A DNA stretch of 64,000 nt. Source: Clytia hemisphaerica. Its lineage: Eukaryota; Cnidaria; Hydrozoa; Leptothecata; Clytiidae. The first letter of the stretch is position 1, and every line of letters starts with the position of its first letter. The notes below the pieces were generated by a model. It saw nothing but the letters and a program-made list of their open reading frames with translations, did no database searches and was not told the origin of the DNA. Positions 2,072 to 51,309 of this stretch are shown here, in pieces. The stretch is from the NCBI GenBank assembly GCA_902728285.1, contig CACVBU010001306.1, positions 145,273 to 209,272 on the forward strand, in the 5' to 3' direction. The position numbers were made by a program, and so were the translations under genes.

Positions 2072-3485
2072 GCGACCCTGCCGACGCATCGGACAGTCCG
2101 GTGTTTTGTCCGGTGCCAAAAAGTATTTGAATTTCTGGACACCCGACACGTGTGTATCATCAAAAATAATGTGCACTGGACGCACCGGACTCAAGTCCGG
2201 TGTTCGTTAATCTTAATGTTAATGTATATATTCTTTAAAGTCGAAAAATGTGTACAAATCTGTACTAGCTTTAAAGCTAATAGAGTTCGACTGCCTATTT
2301 TACAAAATGAATCATTCATCATCATCTGTTAATGCCCAATCGCTGACGATTTCTTCTGTAGTAGAGCATTTTGGTTTGTAATGTGAAAATATCTTTGTTT
2401 GGTTTTGTAATTTTTTAACGAGGCGTAGTTTTGTTCTTGGGCTTCCTCTTACGCACCAGTTGAATCCTTTATTGTTATTGTTTTTTGTTTCCTTGATCTT
2501 TTTCCGTTCGTTGATTGTGAAATCTTCCGTTATACTTACCTGAAAGAAACAAGTTTCTTTTAGCATGTGTAAATTCTTCATGATAACATCTTTGTCATGT
2601 TCACTTTGCAGGGTGACTTTCAGAGGACGGCCATTCTTTGTTTTTCTGTCTCCTAATCTGTGGTGAGTAACATTGATTTCTGGAACATTGATGTCATCTA
2701 GGAGTTCTCGGAACCGAAATATGTCATACTTTTCCCCATTTTCTTCTTCTTCCTTATCTGGGCCTGAATATTCGAGAAACACGTGAACGATCATATTCAG
2801 TTTTCTAGATTCTATGTCTCTCTTTTCACTTTCTTCCTTCCGTTTTTGTTCTTCGGCAGATTTTAAGTCTTCTTTTTGCTTCTTGGTAATCTCGGCGTAT
2901 GTTTTCTTTGATGTTTCCGTCATTATTTCTGCTGTGTGCTTTATTTCCTCTTTTATCATGCTTCTTGTCTTGTAGTTTTCCTGCCAGAAAGGTTTTGAGA
3001 TCATTTTTGATGGAATCACGGGTTTTTGTGTTGGTGTTGACCTCATTGTTCAGTTTTTGTATGACGTCGTCTTTCTTTTTAAGTTCATTTTGCATCATAT
3101 GTTGAGTGTTTTTTCCCACTTTATTTCTTAGGTTTTTCGTTATTCGTACGCAGTTTGAACATAAGTAATGATCGTTGTAGGATGTCACGAATATTTGTAA
3201 TTGATACAGGGGTAACTGTGTGCACTCATAATGAACTGATCTTTTACATTTTTTGCATGTTAAGCGATCCAGGTCTTCGTCTTCAGTACATCTTGACGGC
3301 GTGCAAGCTTGAGGTGGTGAGGCTGCTTCGAAAGGCTGATCTTTATCCATTTTGATGTTATTTTCATGAATTTTGATGTTTTTATTTGTTTTCAGCCATT
3401 TTTTCGAAGAGCGTTGCATAAGCGTCTGATCTAGTTGACGTCAAATAAAAACTGTGAGTATAGTATGGTTCGTCGGCAGGGTCGT
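2072..3485. mobile_element. TIR transposon with 8-bp target duplication, carrying an ORF1-like gene
   Basis: The ends GCGACCCTGCCGACG (2072) and CGTCGGCAGGGTCGT (to 3485) form a 15-bp terminal inverted repeat. It is flanked by a perfect 8-bp duplication ACACAATG (2064-2071 and 3486-3493). The left 140 bp contains repeated CCGGAC/GTCCGG motifs and resembles the 120-bp MITE at 34853-34972, so both belong to one family. An 8-bp TSD fits hAT, P-like or related superfamilies, but no transposase is present. The cargo is the PHD/coiled-coil frame on the minus strand. Confidence 0.85.
2312..3419 (-). pseudogene. PHD-finger / coiled-coil / RRM-like protein, LINE ORF1-type, frameshifted
   Basis: Two overlapping minus-strand frames (3419-2826 and 3046-2312) make one protein if joined near 3000. 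The first part has a PHD-like Cys/His module (LTCKKCKRSVHYECTQLP, then YLCSNCVRI) followed by Lys/Glu-rich coiled coil. The second continues the coiled coil (TYAEITKKQKEDLKSAEEQK) into an ORF1-like domain with RKLNMIV, HHRLGDRKTKNGRPLKVTL and ITEDFTINERKKIKE. That order, with the RLG..GRPLKVTL and ISxDxTxxER motifs, is known from ORF1 proteins of animal non-LTR retrotransposons, which bind RNA. Here it fills the TIR element at 2072-3485 and no reverse transcriptase is present. A +1 shift or indel near 3000 breaks it. Whether it is a captured ORF1 or a native accessory gene cannot be told from one copy. Confidence 0.7.
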
Positions 3486-3493
3486 ACACAATG

Positions 3494-5021
3494 TTGTTTA
3501 TGGATATTTTTCAGGTTCGGTTAAGTTACATGATTTTAGCCATAATGTTTCTTAATGTATACCATGTTGTCTTTCTTTTGGCACTTTGGTCCTCAAAAGA
3601 ATGCTTTGATCCTTTAGTTGCTTGAAAATCAACAATCCCAGTTTCTGCTTTGTTCTCAGTTTGTCTTATTTTTTGACGTCTCGTTGTTCTTATGAAATTG
3701 TTCCCATCAAAAACTTTTATAGTATGAGAAAAGAAGTTGGGTAAAAAAAAAGTTTGATATTAATTAAGTTTATACCAAAGTCCATTTTAAAATTATTATG
3801 ATACTCTTCGCCTTTGGAATAGTTTGTCAGTTTCAAAATCTTGTTTTATACATAGAAAACCCCACAAAACCTGACGTTGAAACTCTTCCCACATTCGTCA
3901 CTTTTCAAAAATCCTGTGAACGTTCACCGCTCCTATCAATAAGGGAAAGTAACAGTGTACTGCTATTTCCTTTATCATCTTTGTGAAGTAGTATTGTTTA
4001 CTGAGAAGCCCTCTCTTAATTAGTTAATGATGGTTGAGCAGTCTCATTAGTAATTACTACATACAACGTAATTGAATTAAGCACAGCGATAACGAATTAC
4101 GGAGTAATCAAAACTTTTTTAGCTGTTGGGATTTTTAAACTCACTTGATATTGTGTACATGGCTGGTGACATGGGTATAATGATGATTTTTAAAATTGGT
4201 AAAATGCTGTTGAAGTTCTAGATGTCGTTAAAGGAGTATTATTAAAGTATATCGCATTAGGACTTGCTCTTTCTGTTAAGTTTGTTTTTGGGGAATGTTC
4301 ATTTTATTTGTGGTTTGCATTGCTCATTTTGATTGAAGCAACTGTTCACTTGAGCTGCAGTCTTAATTTGTATATTCATGAATTATAGAGGATGTTTGAA
4401 TTGTGAAAAAAACTCAGGTTTTAGAATTTTCAAGCCAATGAATTGAAATTTAAAAGCAAAATAATTTCATTTCCTAGTTTGCTTTACTCATTTTTATCTT
4501 CTCAGTATTACTCGATATTTTTTACCTAGATTTTATTTTGTATTTTTTGTTATATTTATTTTTTATGTCTACGTTATTTTTCTCTTGGCTTTTCCCCGGG
4601 TGATATTTTGAAATATTGTATGACGTGGAGTAGTTGGGGGTTATTCTCTAGTTGGCTTATTTTGACGTTGGTTTATTTAAAGGTACAAGGATGTTCCGCT
4701 GGGCAGAGTATCTTTTTCACTTTCGCGAGTCTCAGGTAGGGTTCGGAAAAGCTCAAAAATAAATTTTGGCAAATTAATTCAAAAATGAATCCCTAAAGGG
4801 CGCATTTTTCGAACCTGGTCGGCACACTCTTGTTGGTCAGTTAGGTTAATACCATCCGTCTGAGTCCAAATAAATTATATATTTCTTTTCTTCGTTGGTG
4901 CTCTTATGATATTTTGTTTGTTTTGATTGTTTGTTTATTGTTTATGTTGTTCATTAGTTCAAAATTCAACAAAATTGAAAAAAAGGAAAATTACTTGTAA
5001 TGAAAATTCACTAATTCAAAG
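3494..5021. other. Intergenic, no gene seen
   Basis: AT-rich spacer between the TIR element and MTIF3. Short open frames (for example 3798-3986) lack codon structure or a recognisable product. Confidence 0.55.
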
Positions 5022-5603
5022 ATGAACCGCTGCATGTTCTGTCTACGTTCAATGGTCCGTTCAACTGCTCGGACCACGTATCCAGTCAATCATTTTCGAA
5101 GACTGTCCGTGCAAAGTGCATTATGGAGTAGCGATAACAACAAAATTAGGCTGATTGATTTACAAGGGAAAACATTAGGTCTCATAACAATAAACGAAGC
5201 AGAATCGATAGCTAAAAAAGGAAATTTAACTTTAAAACAAGTAGCTGTTCAATCCGATACAATCACAAACAGTGTATACAAGCTTATTGAAATGAAGGCC
5301 CCGTCTACATCAGAGAAACCGATTGGAAAATCGGGCAAAAAATCGGGGAATTCGGAAAAAGAGCTAACTATGAAATCACAAATACAAGATAATGACTTGA
5401 ATGTGAAAGCAAAGAAGTTACAACAGTTTTTAGATCGTGGCTCACAAGTCACTATAAAAATCACCAAACCCAGGAGAGTTCAAACACCACCTATGGAGAC
5501 GTACGAGAGACTGATCGCTAAGCTAGACTGTGAAGTTTCACTCAAAGGGACACCCAAGTCCAGTGAAGGCTTCTTGCGTGCTATCATTGAAAAACGAAAA
5601 TGA
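5022..5603 (+). CDS. MTIF3: Mitochondrial translation initiation factor IF-3
   Basis: Single exon of 193 aa ending at TGA. The N-terminus (MNRCMFCLRSMVRSTART...) is basic, rich in Ser/Thr and free of acids, as expected for a mitochondrial presequence. Residues about 39-95 are the IF3 N-domain (KIRLIDLQGKTLGLITINEA, then LKQVAV and VYKLIEM). After a Lys/Ser linker, residues about 112-190 form the IF3 C-domain (KELTMKSQIQDNDLNVKAKK, FLDRGSQVTIKI). The order and length fit animal MTIF3, which binds the small mitoribosomal subunit and helps place initiator tRNA. The final C-domain helix is short. The start is the first Met of the open frame, and AAAG directly precedes it, so an upstream leader exon or a trans-spliced leader is possible. 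SLC35B2 begins 360 bp downstream on the same strand. Confidence 0.9.
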   Translation: MNRCMFCLRSMVRSTARTTYPVNHFRRLSVQSALWSSDNNKIRLIDLQGKTLGLITINEAESIAKKGNLTLKQVAVQSDTITNSVYKLIEMKAPSTSEKPIGKSGKKSGNSEKELTMKSQIQDNDLNVKAKKLQQFLDRGSQVTIKITKPRRVQTPPMETYERLIAKLDCEVSLKGTPKSSEGFLRAIIEKRK

Positions 5604-5921
5604 AAATTTATGACTTGCTTTGACTTTACTTTTTTCTAGATGTCTCTATCATTTTTGTAAATTTGCCCTAAAAAAATTATTTGTCTACTCAAATACTGTC
5701 GTTTTATTATAATTTTAACATTAACTTAAATTCTACGAATTAATTCTACGACATTAGTTACGTATATAGAGGCTGATTTTGATGGAATTTACTGAAAATA
5801 ACTTGTCAAAATTTGATAAAAATGGAAAAATGTTGTGCGTGGGCAAATAAGGTGACGTTGTAAACTGCTGTAAGAAGCTCATCAGTATTTTCATCAACAT
5901 ATTCATATTTGTATTTTTCAG
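5604..5921 (+). promoter_or_regulatory. MTIF3-SLC35B2 spacer with 3' splice acceptor
   Basis: The spacer ends in GTATTTTTCAG (AG at 5920-5921), a good 3' splice site 42 nt before the SLC35B2 ATG. The 42-nt leader is A-rich (CAACAACAACAAAAAC). It could accept a 5'UTR exon or a spliced leader; no upstream exon can be identified by eye. Confidence 0.45.
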
Positions 5922-5963
5922 GGAAAAAATAAATAAACAACAACAACAAAAACAAAACAAATT

Positions 5964-8900
5964 ATGAAATTGGTATGGGCGTTTGGATTGCTCTTGATTT
6001 TCCTTATTGGTTCATGCCACGCAGTTGATGATGTTGTTGCCGCAGCACCAAGTGAAAAACAGGTATGACTTTCAATTCCTTTAGTAGGTAAATTTTGTGA
6101 CCGTTTTCGAGGTGACCCGAATGCTTCCTTTTCTTTAGATATCTACCCGAAAGTAGGGAAGGGCGCTATCACTTTCCCTGGATTTCTCTACCATGCTACG
6201 GCCGACTCCTTTCATATGAGAAATTTAAAACTATTTTGGACACTTTTTACAGTGATTTTAGGGATGTATATGTTATCTATGGTATGGGTAATTTTTTTAA
6301 TCGGGTTTAACACAGCTCTCAATTTTAGCGAAGGTGGACTTTCAATAACAGAAGTGAAACAGTTTGGTTGAGATATTTATTTGAAATACTCTTTAAGGTT
6401 TTATTTTTACATTAGTGTCCCCGTTTCATATCAGACACATATTTCATATCAGGACAGTGTCTGCCTATTTTTATTTTACTCTTTCTAACCAATCTTATTC
6501 CACATCTGTGTCAATCCCATGTGAAAAAAGCTTGTGAATGAAAATTGACGAGTAAGCAAAGGATATTACTCTTTTTTTTCACTTTTAAAATTATTTTGGG
6601 AATGAACTCGTTGGCTTTATCCTCTTTGCTTTGGAAATCTTAAAATCCATTCAGAAATCTATCCTGTTTTGAAATAAAAAATCAGACCCTCTACCATGCA
6701 CACACACTTTACATTCCGAAAGATTTTTTCAATCCCTTAATTTATGTTCTTTCATTCTTTGTTTTTTTTTGTTTCTCCAGAAAGTCACAGTGAGCGGTGA
6801 CAAACACGATGGAGAGGGTGGACATGACCACGCGCATCACATCCCGCATCGCGTGCACAACGAGGAAGAAGAGTCATGGGTTCAGGGATTCGTATGGAAT
6901 ATGGTCGGATATTTGATCATCATTATACCCGCGTCTTTTCTCATCCGAATGGTCAAAAATTCAAACTTCAAAGAGCAAGGAGGTGAGAATGGTCTAAATC
7001 TACACGAACTATTCTACATGGATAGCTATGGTAGATTCTAGTACCGTACAATGGCTAAACTTTCTTTTTTCCCGGTTAAACTTTCCTATTAGCGAGTTTA
7101 TGTATTTGCACTTTTGAGGACGGTAAAGTGACTGAAGCGATTTAGAATAACCCGCAATTCTACCCCGCAAAATCGAGGACGGTTAAAGTGCTGATTTACC
7201 GTCGTCCTCAGTTGGTCATGATCTAGTCAAATTAGAACCTTACCGTCTCCGTCGCTGAAAAACACACATACATACATAAACTCGCTATTGCCACTTTAAC
7301 AACGGAAAATTCCAACACTTGCTAGGCGGTCAGTCACAAGGCTGTTGTGTATTATCTACGCCTTAGTACGCTGCGAAAAAAAACAGCAGAAAGATCCTGG
7401 AAATGCAAGGAATGTTTCCCCAGGATTGAAAAGCTTTAGGCAGCCTACGGTGCATTTTTTTGTTTTCAATTTTGAAGACCGACCCTTGGTCTATTACGTT
7501 TTGTGTATTTTACCTTCCACTGATAGGACGTCCGTTCCTTACTGTAATTCACCAAGTGACGTCAATCTCTCTCGTGATTCCTGAGTGCAATATTTGCAAA
7601 AAGTTACAAATAAGAAATGGTGCTGGGAATAAAACAAAACCATAGATTTATAAAGCCCGAAGGGCTAGATGGAGTGCTTTAAGCTCTTCCAAGCAAAAAA
7701 GTGAATATTGCAAAAAATATTGCTGCTATTGCTTTCGAAAACCAGCGAAGCTTCTGATTGGTGAAGCGCTGAAATGTCACGTGGCTTAGGTATGATTTCC
7801 TATTTAACCTCGGCACACTTTTCAGCAAAAGCACGATATCTAGCCCTTCGGGCTTTATAAATCTATGAACAAAACCCGTTCCCGTCTATTACAAGCTATT
7901 TTATTTATAAAAACAAAACAAATAGAAAGATTCCTTTTATATGTCCGTTTCTTCCGGCAAAAGTTTACGTTCAGGCTAGAAATAAATACATCGGAAGCTG
8001 TGAAAAATTTGAAAAGAAGTGGAATCTCTATAACTCAAACATGCACAAGGAACGCGACCGTAGCATAAAGGTAGAGCATCCAGCTACGGTGCGCTAGGTT
8101 GTGGGTTCGATCCCCAGCCGGGTCATACCAAAGATTCCCAAAATGGCACTTGATGCCTCTCTGCTTGATGCTCAGCAACTAAAGAGACGGATCAAGGGTA
8201 CTTTAATGGGATGAATTTTCGCGGGGATTAAATTTCGCGGTTGAGCTTAGTCTGATTCGCAGACCTATACTTCCTATAGGTCTGCTTAATAGTGTATGGA
8301 TTGGTTTCCCGCTACGGTGGCTCTTATGGTGGCTGACTCGTGCTATTTGGCGAGTTGCTAAGTTTTATGGGAACTCGAATGCGAGTTAAAAGATAAACAA
8401 AAGAAATCAAAGTGAAGACATTCCAGTGTCAGACGGATTCCATTTTGCCACAGGCACGCCTTTTCGAATGTTTCTTTTATTTTCGAATGATTTTTTTCTA
8501 TTTTCGAATGTTTTTTTTATTTTCGAATGTTTTGATATTAGAGCTTTGAGTCAACGAATTTGAATTTCTCAAAAACTTTGAAAGAAAATTTCACTATATA
8601 TAAACTATTTGTTTCTAAAGAACCTCTTCAGGTTAGTTAAATGAGACATATTGGGTTTCATCAATAAAACTGATTCCAACATTCTTCCCGTCCCTGTCAA
8701 AGTTTAACAAAACAAAGAATAACAGAATCTGCTGCTGCACTTTTTCAAACACTGTAAGTAGACACAAAAAAAGTAAAAGGGAAGAAGGCTCTCTGGAAAG
8801 AGATAAAGCCACAAAATAATATTACTACTAGATACTTACAACAACAATCTTTCCCTATCATAAGCTTCTAAAATAACCACATACCTGTCAATACCTGTTA

Positions 8901-11900
8901 CTGTATCTTTTCTACATTCGTTCAAAACGAACAAAATGTCCACCAAAACAAATCAAAATTCCACATTATAAGCTTGATAACAAATGTTCTAGACGGTAAT
9001 TTTTTCTTGGTACACATATTATATACTCTAAAACTTGTAATTGTATTAACAAAACTTCTTTCGCCTTAAACAAACTACCCCAAATCAAAAACAAGTACTC
9101 GAGCTTGACGAAAACCACTTCCCGCTTCGACGGCCATCTTGAATTTGAACAGCGAAAGCTATGCTACTTCGTAACAGGTAGAGTACCTTTGCAAATTAAT
9201 CATCATAAGCACTCGCCAGCAAAAATAGCCTTCTCGCCGAATTTCGGCGAGAAGCGGCATTTTGTGGGAAAGAGGATTTACCGAGTATTAAGCAGCCTCT
9301 ATAAGAAACTTTTTTCGCTAGAGGATGAGCAGAAGCCTAGGTTGAGCTCATCCGCGAAATTTAAAATTTCACGGGGATTAATTTTCGCGGATGAGGCATT
9401 TCCTGATTTTTCGCGGGGATTTAATCTCGCGGATTGGGGTACAAATTTTTGAAAAGGGTCAAAACATTAAAATAAAATTTTTCCAGGAAAATAAATAATT
9501 TTTTTTCAAGTAATAAGAGGGTGTTTTGGAATAGGGCGAGGAGATATGTATTACAAAGAACACTGTTTGCAAATGCTGCTGCCAAAACAAAGCGTTCGAG
9601 TAAACCAGAAAACCCATCTGTTATCCCGAAGACATCTAATGCGCCTATTTTGTTAGACTAGTCATAGCTTTCACTAAATGCCCACGCAGAAGATCATGTC
9701 ATGCACTTATAAACTTTTTAATGCTTTAAAAATTAAAACATTAAAAATAATCAGAAATAATTGATTGATTTAATTATTGAATGATTGATTAATTGATTGA
9801 GGCATATGCTTGAAAAAAATTATATTCCATTAACACAATACTTGAAGAATTCCTGCAGCTTGATAATTTGATAAATTTAAGGAAAAGCTTCTCACAAATA
9901 TATTTCAAAAATTATGGTATAATTAGCATACTGGTTTTCACATCTCCTGTTTGTTTTTTTCTCCCAGTTTCTATCTTACAACAATATATGTCATGATTAT
10001 TACTCACAATAGACCTTTTCTGATAATGCCGCAGACATTTTAGATTGTAGGCGAAATATATAGTAGTGAATAAATCAACAAGGTAACCAATCAGAAATAG
10101 CTTGTTTTTTTCATTGGCTGCTATATTTCAACAATTCTCTATTGCAACTTTGCCTAATAAACAATAGTCAAGAGGATACTGCGTATGAAATTTATCAAAA
10201 AGTTCTGCGCCATCTTAAATAGGGTGAACTAGAAACCAATCCTAGTTAAGGCCCGGCCTCCACTTGCGTACGCTGTGATTGCACTTCTCAAACAAAATCT
10301 TCTATTTTATCGGTCAAAAGAAAAATAAAGGAATGCCATTGTGGTCCATTCAGACGTACAGTCGAGAAAAGTTGAAATGCGCCTAAATTTTTTTTCAAGT
10401 GCATAGTACTTTTTCATGATGCAATCTTTTCTCCAAGCTGAAAGGATTGAAGCCATTAGGATGATCGCAGCGCAGACGATGAAGAGACGTGGTGCCTTCA
10501 GGAAGCTAGACTTTTTGAGTTTATAGCTATATATACTTTCACTTTATGGTGTTTCTATATGACTGTCTGTGTACCTAGTCTAACCACCGTTAAATGCCTT
10601 CGGGAAGGTCCATCCTAACTTGGAAAGCCAGAATTGGAGTTATTTTAACAAACCACTGGAGCGTAAGTTATTTAGAAAAAGTTGAATATGCGCATGTAAA
10701 GTTAAACGAATGTTAACAAACTTTTTTCAGGTTTTTTAAATAGATTTTACCACACTGAAAAAACAGTGAATACACTCTAAGTGAGGTAAATCTATATTGA
10801 AGACCAAAAGAAAAAGTTTGTTTACATTGATTGACATTCAACATTCATTCAACCACTTTTGGATTCAACTTTACATATGGCCATATGCATACATTCAACA
10901 TTCTTGTACTTTGCCGGTATCTTGTTTTACTAAGTTAAGAAGGACTTTCTCGAGTTACGACCATATGATGGTATTTAAAGCTTAATAAGCTCTATAAACA
11001 ATAAAGCTAGTTATTAATATAATAACAGACAAAGATAAATTACAGTTTGAACAAAAATATCAAATGTACGTACATTTAAAAAAAACTTGAGCAAATTTCT
11101 TTAAAGATTCCAGAAAAAGAATTGAAATCATTGCTGAAATGAACTTCTGACTAAATTACAGTATTTAGTATTCAGTTTCAAAGACAAGAAACAAAATTTG
11201 ACATACAAAACACTTTTTCCAGTAAATGAATCAGCTAATCATCATAACCAGTCTACCATTTTGTTTGTTTTGATTTGCACAAGTAATATTGTAATTCGTG
11301 TTATATCATACACTGTTATAATTTCATTTATAACACTCGCTTCAGCTTTTCAAGGCTAAATCAAAACTAATAAATTGTAATATGTATTAATGGTAATAGC
11401 ATATAACGTAATATGAAATAATGCATACTACTGTCCCGAAAAAAAACCCGAACATTTACGGAAGAGACTAACTACGGAGATGCTTGCGCGACAAAACACA
11501 AAAACAACAAAAACAACAAAATTTCGAGATTCCAGTCCAATATCTATGCGTGAAACTATGAGTGCCTCCTCGTCGCTGCGCTCCTGCGGGGGCAATTAGG
11601 AAGTTTTTTAACTTGTTAAAACAGAGATAAATAAAATGACTCAAATGACTTGTTGTTTCGTTATTTTCACTCTTTCTTATCATTGAAAATAAATTCTTTT
11701 GTTTTCCGTTTTCCCTCCTTTTCCTTTTCTTACATATCCTTTTAAATGTTTAAAGGAAACGACGCATGGTATATTTATGAAATGTTGATCTAGTATTGGC
11801 ACAAACATCCATACGGAGTATTTAGGAGTGCTGGATCATAACAAAAACCAAAAGTGACTTTATTCCAAAAATATATATTCAAAAAAGTGAATGTAATCTA

Positions 11901-14517
11901 CTATAATGTTCAACAACAACACAAAAAGGCATACAGGAAAACTGAAAGAAAAAAAGAATGTCTTTTTCTTTTGAATGAAATCGAGTGTTTCTATTTTTAA
12001 ATGAAAACATTCTATTGTGAATTTATTCGAAAACTTCTTTGCAATCTTTTTGTTTATATTTTGTCTTCATTCACTTTCGTTTACTGTTGAAAACATAACA
12101 AAGTTTTAGCTATACTCTTAAATCGCGTATAACTGTCGGTTAAGCCAATCAGCTTTCGGGCTGACATCAGCATGTATTTCAGAGTATACCATGGAAGTGC
12201 CACAAAATCCGACCCCTACTATAAGTATAGCGCTATAACCTTTAATTTCAAGCCAGTTGGATTACCCTCTTGCATTGAAAAGCTATTAACAATAAGCGAT
12301 CACTTTAGATAAAAAATTTTCCAATACCTCTTCCAAGTTTGTAAATTTGTGGAGAAAATTTTGAGGAAAACGATTTTTTGCTAACAAGCATATCGAGGAT
12401 TTTACCTTTTTCGAGGGTTGCGTGCCCTCATGTAGAAAATAAAAAAGGATAAAAATAGAAATTTCGCGGATTGCAAAAAAAATTCAAATTTTTCGCGGAA
12501 ACTTATTTTCGCGGATGGGCCTTTTTCAAATTTCCAATAGGACTTATTTTCGCGGATGACACCCAAATCCGCGAAAATTAATCCCCGTGAAAATTTATCC
12601 CATTAAAGTAAGTGGAGAAATCCAGGGAAAGGAGTGGCGCCCTCCCCTACCTTCGGGTAGACAGCTATACGAAAAGGAAGCCTTCGGGTCGCCCTCGACT
12701 GCGATCGCAAACTTACTTACTACTTACAGGGAACGCCAATTTGTTCGACTTATGGGAATTTCGAGTTATAGAGACGTCCTTTTAAGGCATTATTTAACTG
12801 ATGGGACAAGAGAGTTTTTTTCGGGTTAAGGATACAACCGAGTTATAGAGGTTCGAGTTAATGAGACTCCACTGTAGTTTTTTTTTTCTTAAAAAATATA
12901 GACGTGTTTGTCAGGCATAAAATGAATGTTCGTCGCTGTGGAAAATTATTGAATATTTTTTTCTTCACTGAAACAACAAGCATACTTTCATTCAGTTTTA
13001 ATTTTAGAGTTCTTTATTTTTTACCGGTTTTTAGGCCAAGGTAAATGGTACCAACTACTAACGTGTTGCATTTTCGGTAATGAAGCTTCACCCACTGGTA
13101 ACAAAAGATCAATCTTTCCATGTCTTTCTGGCGACACCACCACTGCAACGGCTATCAAACTCGCCACATGCACCATTGGTAAGCCATAGCCACAATCTGG
13201 AATTTTCTTTTCATTTCTTTTCATATGTCATTTCCTTCAGTGCGCACATTGCCGTTTTTGTCTTTTTGTTTTATGTTTTTTTTCCTGCGAACTGGAACTC
13301 TCTCTTTTCATTCAATAAAGATGTCATTTTATTTCAGTGTGCACATCCGTTTTTATATTTTTGTTTTTTCGATCTTTCTCTTTCTATAAGGATATCCATA
13401 TTTGAAATTTTTTATGGTAAATTTTAACGATATATCCGATATTCCAAGTTGACTTTTCGACTTTGTATTAAGCAAGAAACATTATAATTTTGACACTTGG
13501 ACAGCAACAATTAGGTTTTATTTAGGGTCATACAAGAAGCTATATCTTTCGTTCTTATTGGTAATTTCAGGTCTTCAAGTATCTTACCTAACGTGGGGTG
13601 TGCTCCAAGAGAAAGTGATGACACACAAGTACGGGGAAGGCACACAAGCCGTCAAATTCAAGAACTCCGAATTCCTCGTCTTCATGAACCGTATCGCAGC
13701 TTTTATTGTTGCTGGGCTATATATCCAAATCACACGGTCAGGCCAATGGAACGGACCATTTTATCGGTTTTCTTTTGCCTCTTTATCGAATATTTGCTCG
13801 TCTTGGTGTCAATACGAAGCGTTGCGATTTGTCAGTTTCCCGACGCAGGTACTTGGGAAAGCCTCCAAGATGATTCCTGTTATGATCATGGGTCGTGTGG
13901 TTTCTAAGAAAACGTACCAATATTATGAATACGTTGTGGCACTTATGATTTCAGTTGGCGTTTCCCTCTTCTTAACGGCTACCGGCTCCGATAAACACAA
14001 CTCTACGGAAACTACCGTGTCCGGCTTAATTCTAATGATCGGATATATGGGTTTTGATAGCTTCACAGCCAATTGGCAATCGCATATGTTTACCGAATAT
14101 AAAGTGCCATCCATGCAGATGATGTTTAACGTGAATTGTTTCTCCTGTTTATTCACCTCAGTACCGTTACTCATCTCGGGCGGCATGACTTACGCCCTGG
14201 CGTTTATGATGGTCCACCCATCTTTTGCCACTCACGTTGGTATTATCTCCTTAACATCGGTGACAGGCCAAATGTTTATTTTCTACACTCTTGCTGAGTT
14301 TGGACCGCTTGTTTTTACAACCATAATGGTGACACGGAATATGTTGAGCATTTTATTGTCTTGCATTATTTATGGTCATGTTTTAACTTCACAAGCTGCT
14401 TTGGGTGTTTCCGTTGTATTCTGCGCTCTGTTTTTACAGATTTATGCGAAATACCGTATCAAACAAAAGAAATCTCAACAAGTGACGAATCCACGTGAAC
14501 AATCTGATATGGCTTAA
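5964..14517 (+). CDS. SLC35B2: SLC35B2 (PAPST1), Golgi PAPS transporter, four exons
   Basis: Exons 5964-6062, 6781-6982, 13035-13178 and 13571-14517 join with GT-AG borders in phases 0, 1 and 1, giving 463 codons plus stop. Exon 1 encodes a signal-anchor-like segment (LVWAFGLLLIFLIGSCHA). Exon 2 encodes a His/Glu-rich luminal stretch (HDGEGGHDHAHH), then ESWVQGFVWNMVGYLIIII, equivalent to the first conserved helix of human SLC35B2. Exon 3 gives LLTCCIFGNEASP. Exon 4 gives GLQVSYLTWGVLQEKVM, FASLSNICSSWCQYEALRFV, SFPTQVLGKASKMIPVM, SGLILMIGYMGFDSFTANWQ and a Lys-rich tail. Family members exchange PAPS from cytosol into Golgi lumen for sulfation. Intron 2 is 6 kb and made largely of mobile elements. 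Confidence 0.95.
7091..7289. mobile_element. MITE with AGCGAGTTTATGTAT inverted ends
   Basis: AGCGAGTTTATGTATTTGC at the left is mirrored by ATACATAAACTCGCTATT at the right, about 200 bp apart, in SLC35B2 intron 2. The inside contains GAGGACGGTAAAGTG and its inverse. The target duplication is not clear. Confidence 0.6.
7641..7867. mobile_element. 227-bp MITE, 30-bp TIR, 8-bp TSD
   Basis: The two ends form a nearly perfect 30-bp inverted repeat beginning CATAGATTTATAAAGCCCGA. The 8-bp duplication AACAAAAC lies at 7633-7640 and 7868-7875. This is the pattern of a hAT-type MITE, although no autonomous partner is in the window. It lies in SLC35B2 intron 2. Confidence 0.85.
8049..8200 (+). repeat. 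tRNA-derived SINE, 5' part (split by insertion)
   Basis: The head (8049-8127) has a pol III B box, GGTTCGATCCC, and a degenerate A box around TAGCATAAAGG. It passes into a tRNA-unrelated body (CATACCAAAGATTCC...ATCAAGGGTA). The body matches the copy at 23764-23960. At 8200 the SINE is broken by the 4408-bp element and resumes at 12611. The head does not fold as an intact tRNA. Confidence 0.8.
8201..12608. mobile_element. 4408-bp TIR element with TA duplication inserted in a SINE
   Basis: The left end CTTTAATGGGATGAATTTTC and the inverse of the right end, CTTTAATGGGATAAATTTTC, continue into a TIR of about 40 bp containing CGCGGGGATTAA and TTTCGCGG. TA flanks both sides (8199-8200 and 12609-12610). 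Removing the element restores the SINE reading ATCAAGGGTAAGTG seen at 23764-23960. Subterminal CGCGG-rich blocks recur at 9340-9440 and 12450-12600. The open frames inside (9105-9452, 10797-10985, 11468-11683) match no transposase I know, so it looks non-autonomous or badly decayed. The TA TSD suggests a Tc1/mariner-like or PIF-like mover. Confidence 0.85.
12611..12735 (+). repeat. tRNA-derived SINE, 3' part
   Basis: This continues the SINE cut at 8200: AGTGGAGAAATCCAGGGAAA, GGAGTGGCGCCCTCC, CTACCTTCGGGTAGA, and a tail ending in ACTTACTTACTACTTAC. The match to 23845-23960 is clear. Together the two parts make a SINE of about 280 bp. Confidence 0.8.
12736..12880. mobile_element. Pogo/Tigger-like terminal fragment
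   Basis: The right end, read inverted, is CTACAGTGGAGTCTCATTAA followed by CTCGAACCTCTATAACTCG, the style of Tigger/pogo ends. The left part has related TTCGAGTTATAGAGACG. No transposase is visible. Confidence 0.5.
13035..13178 (+). CDS. SLC35B2: SLC35B2 exon 3 (48 codons, short)
   Basis: Acceptor TTTTTAG|GCC and donor ATTG|GTAAG delimit 144 nt. Read in phase 1 it gives GQGKWYQLLTCCIFGNEASP ... IKLATCTIG, then GLQVSYLTWG in exon 4. The CCIFGNE motif aligns with KACVFGNE and the end with KLLFCATG of the human protein. It restores the only missing part of the gene. The longer open frame at 13080-13427 is in another frame and is not coding. Confidence 0.9.
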
Positions 14518-23763: not shown

Positions 23764-23960
23764 GAGGTCATACGAAAGATTCCAAAAATGGTACTTGATG
23801 TCCCTCTGCTTGGTGCTCATTAATTAGGAGAAGAATCAAGGGTAAGTGAAGAAATCCAGGGAGAAAGAGTGGCGCCCTCTCCTACCTTCGGGTGGATAGC
23901 TATCGAAAGAGGAGCCTTCGGGTTGCCTCCAATTGCTGCCACAGACTTACTTAGTGATCT
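23764..23960 (+). repeat. SINE copy, 5'-truncated
   Basis: GGTCATACGAAAGATTCC to CTCCAATTGCTGCCACAGAC, ending ACTTACTTAG. It is uninterrupted at the point where the copy at 8200 is broken, and so proves the empty site. Confidence 0.8.
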
Positions 23961-50396: not shown

Positions 50397-51309
50397 TAGG
50401 GCAAGAAAAAAATTTCGTCATAAATTGGGTTTCAACCGCGAAAATTAGTTTCGCGAGATACGATCATTTCGGACGCTCTTACCGCGAAAATAAGTTCCTT
50501 GAAAATTAGTTCTCTTTTAAGGTAATTTTTATTTTCTTTCTCAAAGGAAATTGCAACAAGGTATAACCTTAAATATTGGTACAACTAGTGGTCATTGCAA
50601 ACATTTCAGAGAGTTGTGCCAATCTTGGTTTACAGATATTCAACCCCAATTATTGGGTGGCGAGGGACAACAAGTGCTCGTCAAAATCATCAAGGTATTT
50701 ACATAACGACCGGATATCTTTCTACATTTTTCATTAGATACATATGTGCAATAAGGTTAGGCTAAATTGGCTACCTTATCCACAATAAATGTTCGACTTA
50801 TGAGCATAGCTCGCCTTTACCGATAAAACCTGGTACATTGTTTTTTTGTGAAAAAGATGTGATCCTTCGCACAGGGTGTATGCGCAATCGAAATCTCCAT
50901 GATTATCAAGGATTAAACATAGAAATTGCTACTTATCATGCACTTTTACGGATGAAGAAAAAAAAGGGTATAAGGTGTGAACAAGCAGGGGGATTCGTCA
51001 ATGAATACAATTTCCGTTTTTTCATAAAAAGTGAGGAAATTATTTAAGACAGAATGATCAAAGTGTTTAAGAATGTATACAACCTTGTTTTTTAAAGTTT
51101 TAATTGTAATTTTATTGAGAAAGTTGAATTTAAAAATAAAAGATTGAATGAAGCATCTCTTATACCTTATAACTCAATTCGTTTTCTTCTTTCTCTACGA
51201 TTTATTTGAGGAGATTTGGCAATGAACAGTGAAAAAGGGAGTAAGTGCAAAGTTAAATCAAAATATATTCGGCATAAAAAGATTGGGTAAAAATGGAATA
51301 TCAATTTTT

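Follow-up and report, generated by a model that had tools for sequence, protein, structure and literature searches.

Nested transposition almost certainly accounts for the 4408 bp that interrupt a SINE in the stretch of Clytia hemisphaerica DNA analysed here (64,000 nucleotides, referred to as the window). A SINE would first have inserted with a 7-bp duplication of its target, a TA-targeting MITE, non-autonomous, bearing TIRs and some 877 bp long, would next have entered the SINE at a TA, presumably mobilised by a transposase made elsewhere, and three unrelated non-autonomous elements, designated inserts A, B and C, would later have entered the MITE. The nesting would fix the order SINE, then MITE, then the inserts, leaving A, B and C unordered relative to one another. 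In the account that follows we read directly from the DNA where each element begins and ends, what it duplicated, which sites are empty and where further copies lie, and infer the transposase behind each element.

The split SINE and its empty site

The SINE lies on the forward strand in two parts, a 5′ part at 8056–8200 that ends in the TA at 8199–8200, and a 3′ part at 12609–12729 that opens with the duplicated TA. Both parts are bracketed by the 7-bp target duplication GGAACGC, which is present on the forward strand at 8049–8055 and matches 12730–12736 exactly; as a chance control, random 16-mers had a 7-mer in common in 247 of 20,000 trials. When the halves were joined and aligned with the copy at 23764–23960, the alignment ran across the break with identity at 159 of 186 aligned positions and a score of 122, the best score in 200 shuffles being 19. 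The copy spans only positions 73–261 of the 277 of the SINE, and is therefore without the SINE head, and it crosses the break point with a single TA, reading ATCAAGGGTAAGTG. Given an empty site with one TA, and GGAACGC flanking both halves, we concluded that the splitting of the SINE and the insertion at TA are real.

A scan of the SINE head with ARAGORN gave no tRNA, and Rfam returned three matches, all under the gathering score. A further piece of the same SINE, reverse-oriented and 80% identical to its 3′ part, lies at 6082–6191 of the window.

The MITE between the SINE halves

The DNA between the SINE halves is bounded by TIRs at 8199–8240 and 12569–12610, which are 42 nt long counting the TA and 93% complementary, with TA at 8199–8200 and again at 12609–12610. 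Within the window a 24-nt TIR pattern matched nowhere but at these two ends, and 100 shuffles gave no match to it. The MITE itself is found, on the forward strand throughout, as a left end with TIR and subterminal repeat (8201–8247), which recurs in other copies, followed by the left part of the body (9349–9657) and a middle part ending in TTAA (11596–11753), both recognised by alignment with other copies, and by a right part carrying subterminal TTTCGCGG repeats and the right TIR (12242–12608), recognised by the TIR pair and by other copies.

Subtraction of inserts A, B and C leaves a window copy of 877 bp without the outer TAs, or 881 bp with them (4408 − 1101 − 1938 − 492 = 877). Alignment of the window copy with eight complete copies and with part of the copy on contig C38 showed where it carries extra DNA. 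Positions 63–881 of the emptied copy, TAs counted, aligned unbroken with the copy at locus L056 over 844 columns at 91.2% identity; the initial 62 bp of the MITE are largely missing from L056 itself. Insert A was absent from all seven aligned copies that cover its site, the copies at L047 and L056 are without B and C, and the short copies hold the target sequences of A and C once.

These measurements agree with the outer architecture that an earlier note had proposed for this DNA, namely a SINE split at 8200/12611 by TA-flanked DNA with TIRs of about 40 bp, with an empty site elsewhere in the window. The TIRs, the TAs and the GGAACGC duplication bear out the split, the alignment of the halves to 23764–23960 is far above its shuffles, and that copy, though partial and headless, does read through with one TA. 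The same note had seen no recognisable transposase, and we likewise found none among the three stop-to-stop frames of 80 or more amino acids that overlap the region; a Pfam scan of seven frames was empty, with best E-values of 0.026–0.089, all well below the cut-off.

Three repeats inside the MITE

Insert A (8248–9339, forward strand) is a 1092-bp non-coding repeat with the ends TAGTC...GCCTA, known from copies elsewhere and from a 9-bp duplication, GGTTGAGCT, present on the forward strand at 8239–8247 and repeated exactly at 9340–9348. A genome search with the leftmost 206 bp of the interrupting DNA yielded 40 matches (40 of 1204 candidates scored), and none of the 39 besides the window itself starts before query position 49, a point just within the TIR; this first pointed to a nested repeat. 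At the 18 loci fetched the match lies within about 8231–9393, and in many it is unbroken from about 8247 to 9339. Copies of insert A recognised by both ends have an exact 9-bp duplication in nine cases of 12, the other three showing three mismatches (L014), one (L022) and eight (L024).

The 9-bp duplication would make insert A MULE-like. The two termini, TAGTCTG and TAGGCTT, share hardly more than TAG; some Mutator-like elements have weak or absent TIRs. Mutator-like elements are given a target duplication of 7–12 bp and, usually, long TIRs (PMC10741241), so that the 9 bp of insert A, window copy included, fits, whereas its near lack of a TIR does not.

Insert B (9658–11595, reverse strand) is a 1938-bp non-coding repeat that runs from TTGCC to CTAG between a flanking A and a flanking T, without duplication, as judged from its copies, flanks and empty sites. 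At least 12 other copies cover query positions 1–1934 in one piece at 85–94% identity (40 of 1679 candidates scored), and the flanks were compared in 10 of those 12. A precedes the 3′-end 4-mer in all ten, the 4-mer being CTAG in eight, TTAG in one and CTTG in one, and T follows GCAA in nine. An empty site was seen in both L047 and L056, and in L047 it reads GTTAGATTAGGAAG, so that the insertion of B duplicated nothing. A 5-bp duplication, ACTAG/ATTAG, was also considered at this insert and was dropped, there being no such regular repeat in the flanks of the 10 other copies.

Helitrons, as characterised in the same source, have TC...CTRR ends, an A-T insertion site and a 3′ hairpin 10–12 nt before the end (PMC10741241). 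Insert B agrees with them in its insertion between A and T, its lack of a duplication and its CTAG end, which is of the CTRR form, but its 5′ end is TT rather than TC (the window copy and all ten of those fetched have TTGCC), and the last 83 nt, in one fold of the window copy, gave no strong 3′ hairpin of the canonical kind. The site and the 3′ end fit, the 5′ end does not, and that one fold showed no clear hairpin; we term insert B Helitron-like and not a Helitron. Inside insert B, at 10681–10853 of the window, there is an imperfect palindrome that is 68% self-complementary, and inverted matches of about 70% occur in some other copies.

Insert C (11754–12241, forward strand) is a 488-bp repeat, AGGAAAC...ATAACCT, with a TTAA duplication at 11750–11753 and 12242–12245 and with copies elsewhere. 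At least 39 other matches are 94–96% identical to it (40 of 150 candidates scored), and their ends agree, 35 of the 39 starting at query positions 8–12 and all 39 stopping at 504–509 of 516. Three copies were examined with their flanks; two of them have TTAA on both sides, as does the window copy, and one has CTAA on the left. T2-MITEs, described in Xenopus and placed in the Kolobok superfamily, have a TTAA target and an AGGRR end (PMC6004289), and both features are common to insert C, which would thus be Kolobok/T2-like. Two of the three fetched copies, TTAA-flanked, carry AGGGAA/TTCCCT termini at both ends; in the window copy (AGGAA) and in the third fetched copy the AGGRR terminus is confined to the left end, the right end of the window copy reading AGGTT on its own strand, not AGGRR.

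The MITE family across the genome

In the searched genome (417 Mb in 951 contigs), ends with the TIR pattern at up to two mismatches numbered 1001 forward and 980 reverse, and a reversed control gave 0. The 100 places listed of these 1981 ends are perfect matches to the pattern, and among them we found 36 plus/minus pairs within 7 kb, of which 33 span 282–818 bp and the remaining three 1629, 3148 and 5512 bp. The longest, at C38:2583246–2588757 (loci L047, L057 and L048), owes its extra length to a different insert, with minisatellite-like repeats. The 3.1-kb pair, on C129, showed no match to the MITE in the 1 kb of it that was examined, and a longest frame there of 80 amino acids.

Fourteen complete copies of 282–848 bp were extracted from the loci; since the TA at their ends had been built into the pattern used for the search, it provides no independent test. 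The copies vary internally, several having another internal segment, and in a group of 345–362 bp (L030, L034 and L040) the match to the window copy is confined to the ends. The TTTCGCGG/CCGCGAAA motifs, of which there are 3–14 per copy in the 14 copies counted, may be subterminal binding sites for a transposase. Single CCGCGAAA/TTTCGCGG octamers also occur in the window outside the element, at 50436 and 50482 (46 bp apart), 14787, 21102 and 58671; these are possibly remnants of the same family.

The family is short, non-coding and present in many copies, and has both TIRs and a target duplication, which gives it the general properties of MITEs. It is a non-coding MITE like CMITE of Acropora, which is described as about 100 bp long, TTAA-flanked, with a TIR of the form CCC... 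and linked to piggyBac (PMC2872659). Unlike CMITE so described, the present family is TA-flanked, 0.28–0.85 kb long and has another TIR, and identity of the two is ruled out by the TTAA flanks and different TIR of CMITE. A full-text literature search on the TIR words of the MITE yielded no transposon paper, as judged by title, with Repbase and Dfam outside the comparison; the TA-inserting family may be undescribed so far.

Neighbouring genes and other frames

A UAA-transporter domain at 13453–14514 of the window (PF08449, E 4.9e-46) is consistent, as a predicted domain, with the SLC35B2-type name of the gene. At 2315–3440 on the reverse strand of the window there are overlapping frames that by eye are like ORF1 of a non-LTR retrotransposon, one of them matching the PHD finger weakly (E 1.4e-4, 22.3 bits, the cut-off being 24), and locus L011 holds a 933-amino-acid open frame (4474–7272, reverse strand) that by eye is like a non-LTR retrotransposon endonuclease/reverse transcriptase.

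Tc1/mariner-type (DDE_3) transposase frames, mostly open over 361–426 amino acids, stand in head-to-tail series on contigs C625, C924, C254, C248, C491, C353, C61, C672, C907 and C899, with a nearly regular spacing, mostly of 3.97–4.40 kb (about 4.38 kb on C625), from which some steps differ. The series could consist of complete transposon units repeated in tandem, or could be produced by the assembly.

Discussion

The earlier note had taken the 4408 bp as one element, a large and possibly undescribed non-autonomous TIR family, in which case the short copies would be internal deletions. We now give that reading practically no credence. While the TIRs and TAs at the outer ends are what it predicts, and the few long pairs among those listed could be cited for it, inserts A, B and C prove to be separate repeat families, each found alone at numerous sites where its ends are the same and insertion marks of its own are present, and it is these independent copies and marks that contradict the large family. 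The short copies, moreover, miss exactly A, B and C while keeping the targets of A and C once, the 5.5-kb copy holds a different insert, and the search for copies of similar length with these TIRs led, in 33 of the 36 listed pairs (100 of 1981 ends), only to the short spans given above. The length of 4.4 kb is therefore owed to three other transposons inserted into a MITE. What stands of the proposed family is that it is non-coding and that no published description was found; its large size does not.

The nested reading is compatible with a more specific proposal, towards which we lean without great confidence, that the MITE arose by deletion from an autonomous transposon of this genome, TA-inserting and of the Tc1/mariner type, which supplies its transposase. 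TA is named as the target of Tc1/mariner (PMC7325037), and the 2-bp TA duplication of the window copy, with one TA at the empty SINE site and TA on both sides here, suggests such a mover. DDE_3 transposase frames are also numerous in the genome (at least 115 matches among 150 scored candidates), and the window MITE is short, non-coding and high-copy, with TIRs and a TA duplication, as Tc1/mariner-type MITEs are. It differs from them in its 3–14 TTTCGCGG/CCGCGAAA motifs per copy and in that a transposase partner was not found: among the matches listed (100 of 1981 TIR places), no PF13358 frame lies within 7 kb of a TIR, the nearest DDE_3 frame on a shared contig being 7078 bp off, and frames judged by eye revealed no autonomous partner in the whole 5.5-kb pair on C38, in 1 kb of the C129 pair, or in L029 and L044, whose ends are partnerless within the locus. 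A transposase outside Tc1/mariner, binding an array of up to 14 subterminal TTTCGCGG sites, is an improbable mover by comparison; were it the true one, the genome would hold an undescribed lineage of TA-targeting transposons.

With the 4408 bp read as a stack nested in a 0.9-kb MITE, what we have is nested repeat DNA of an ordinary sort rather than a large family new to science. It is a case in which a seemingly large new element turns out to be several small ones, all of known kinds, stacked together. This has little wider consequence; the boundaries of the four repeat families could be used in annotating the genome.
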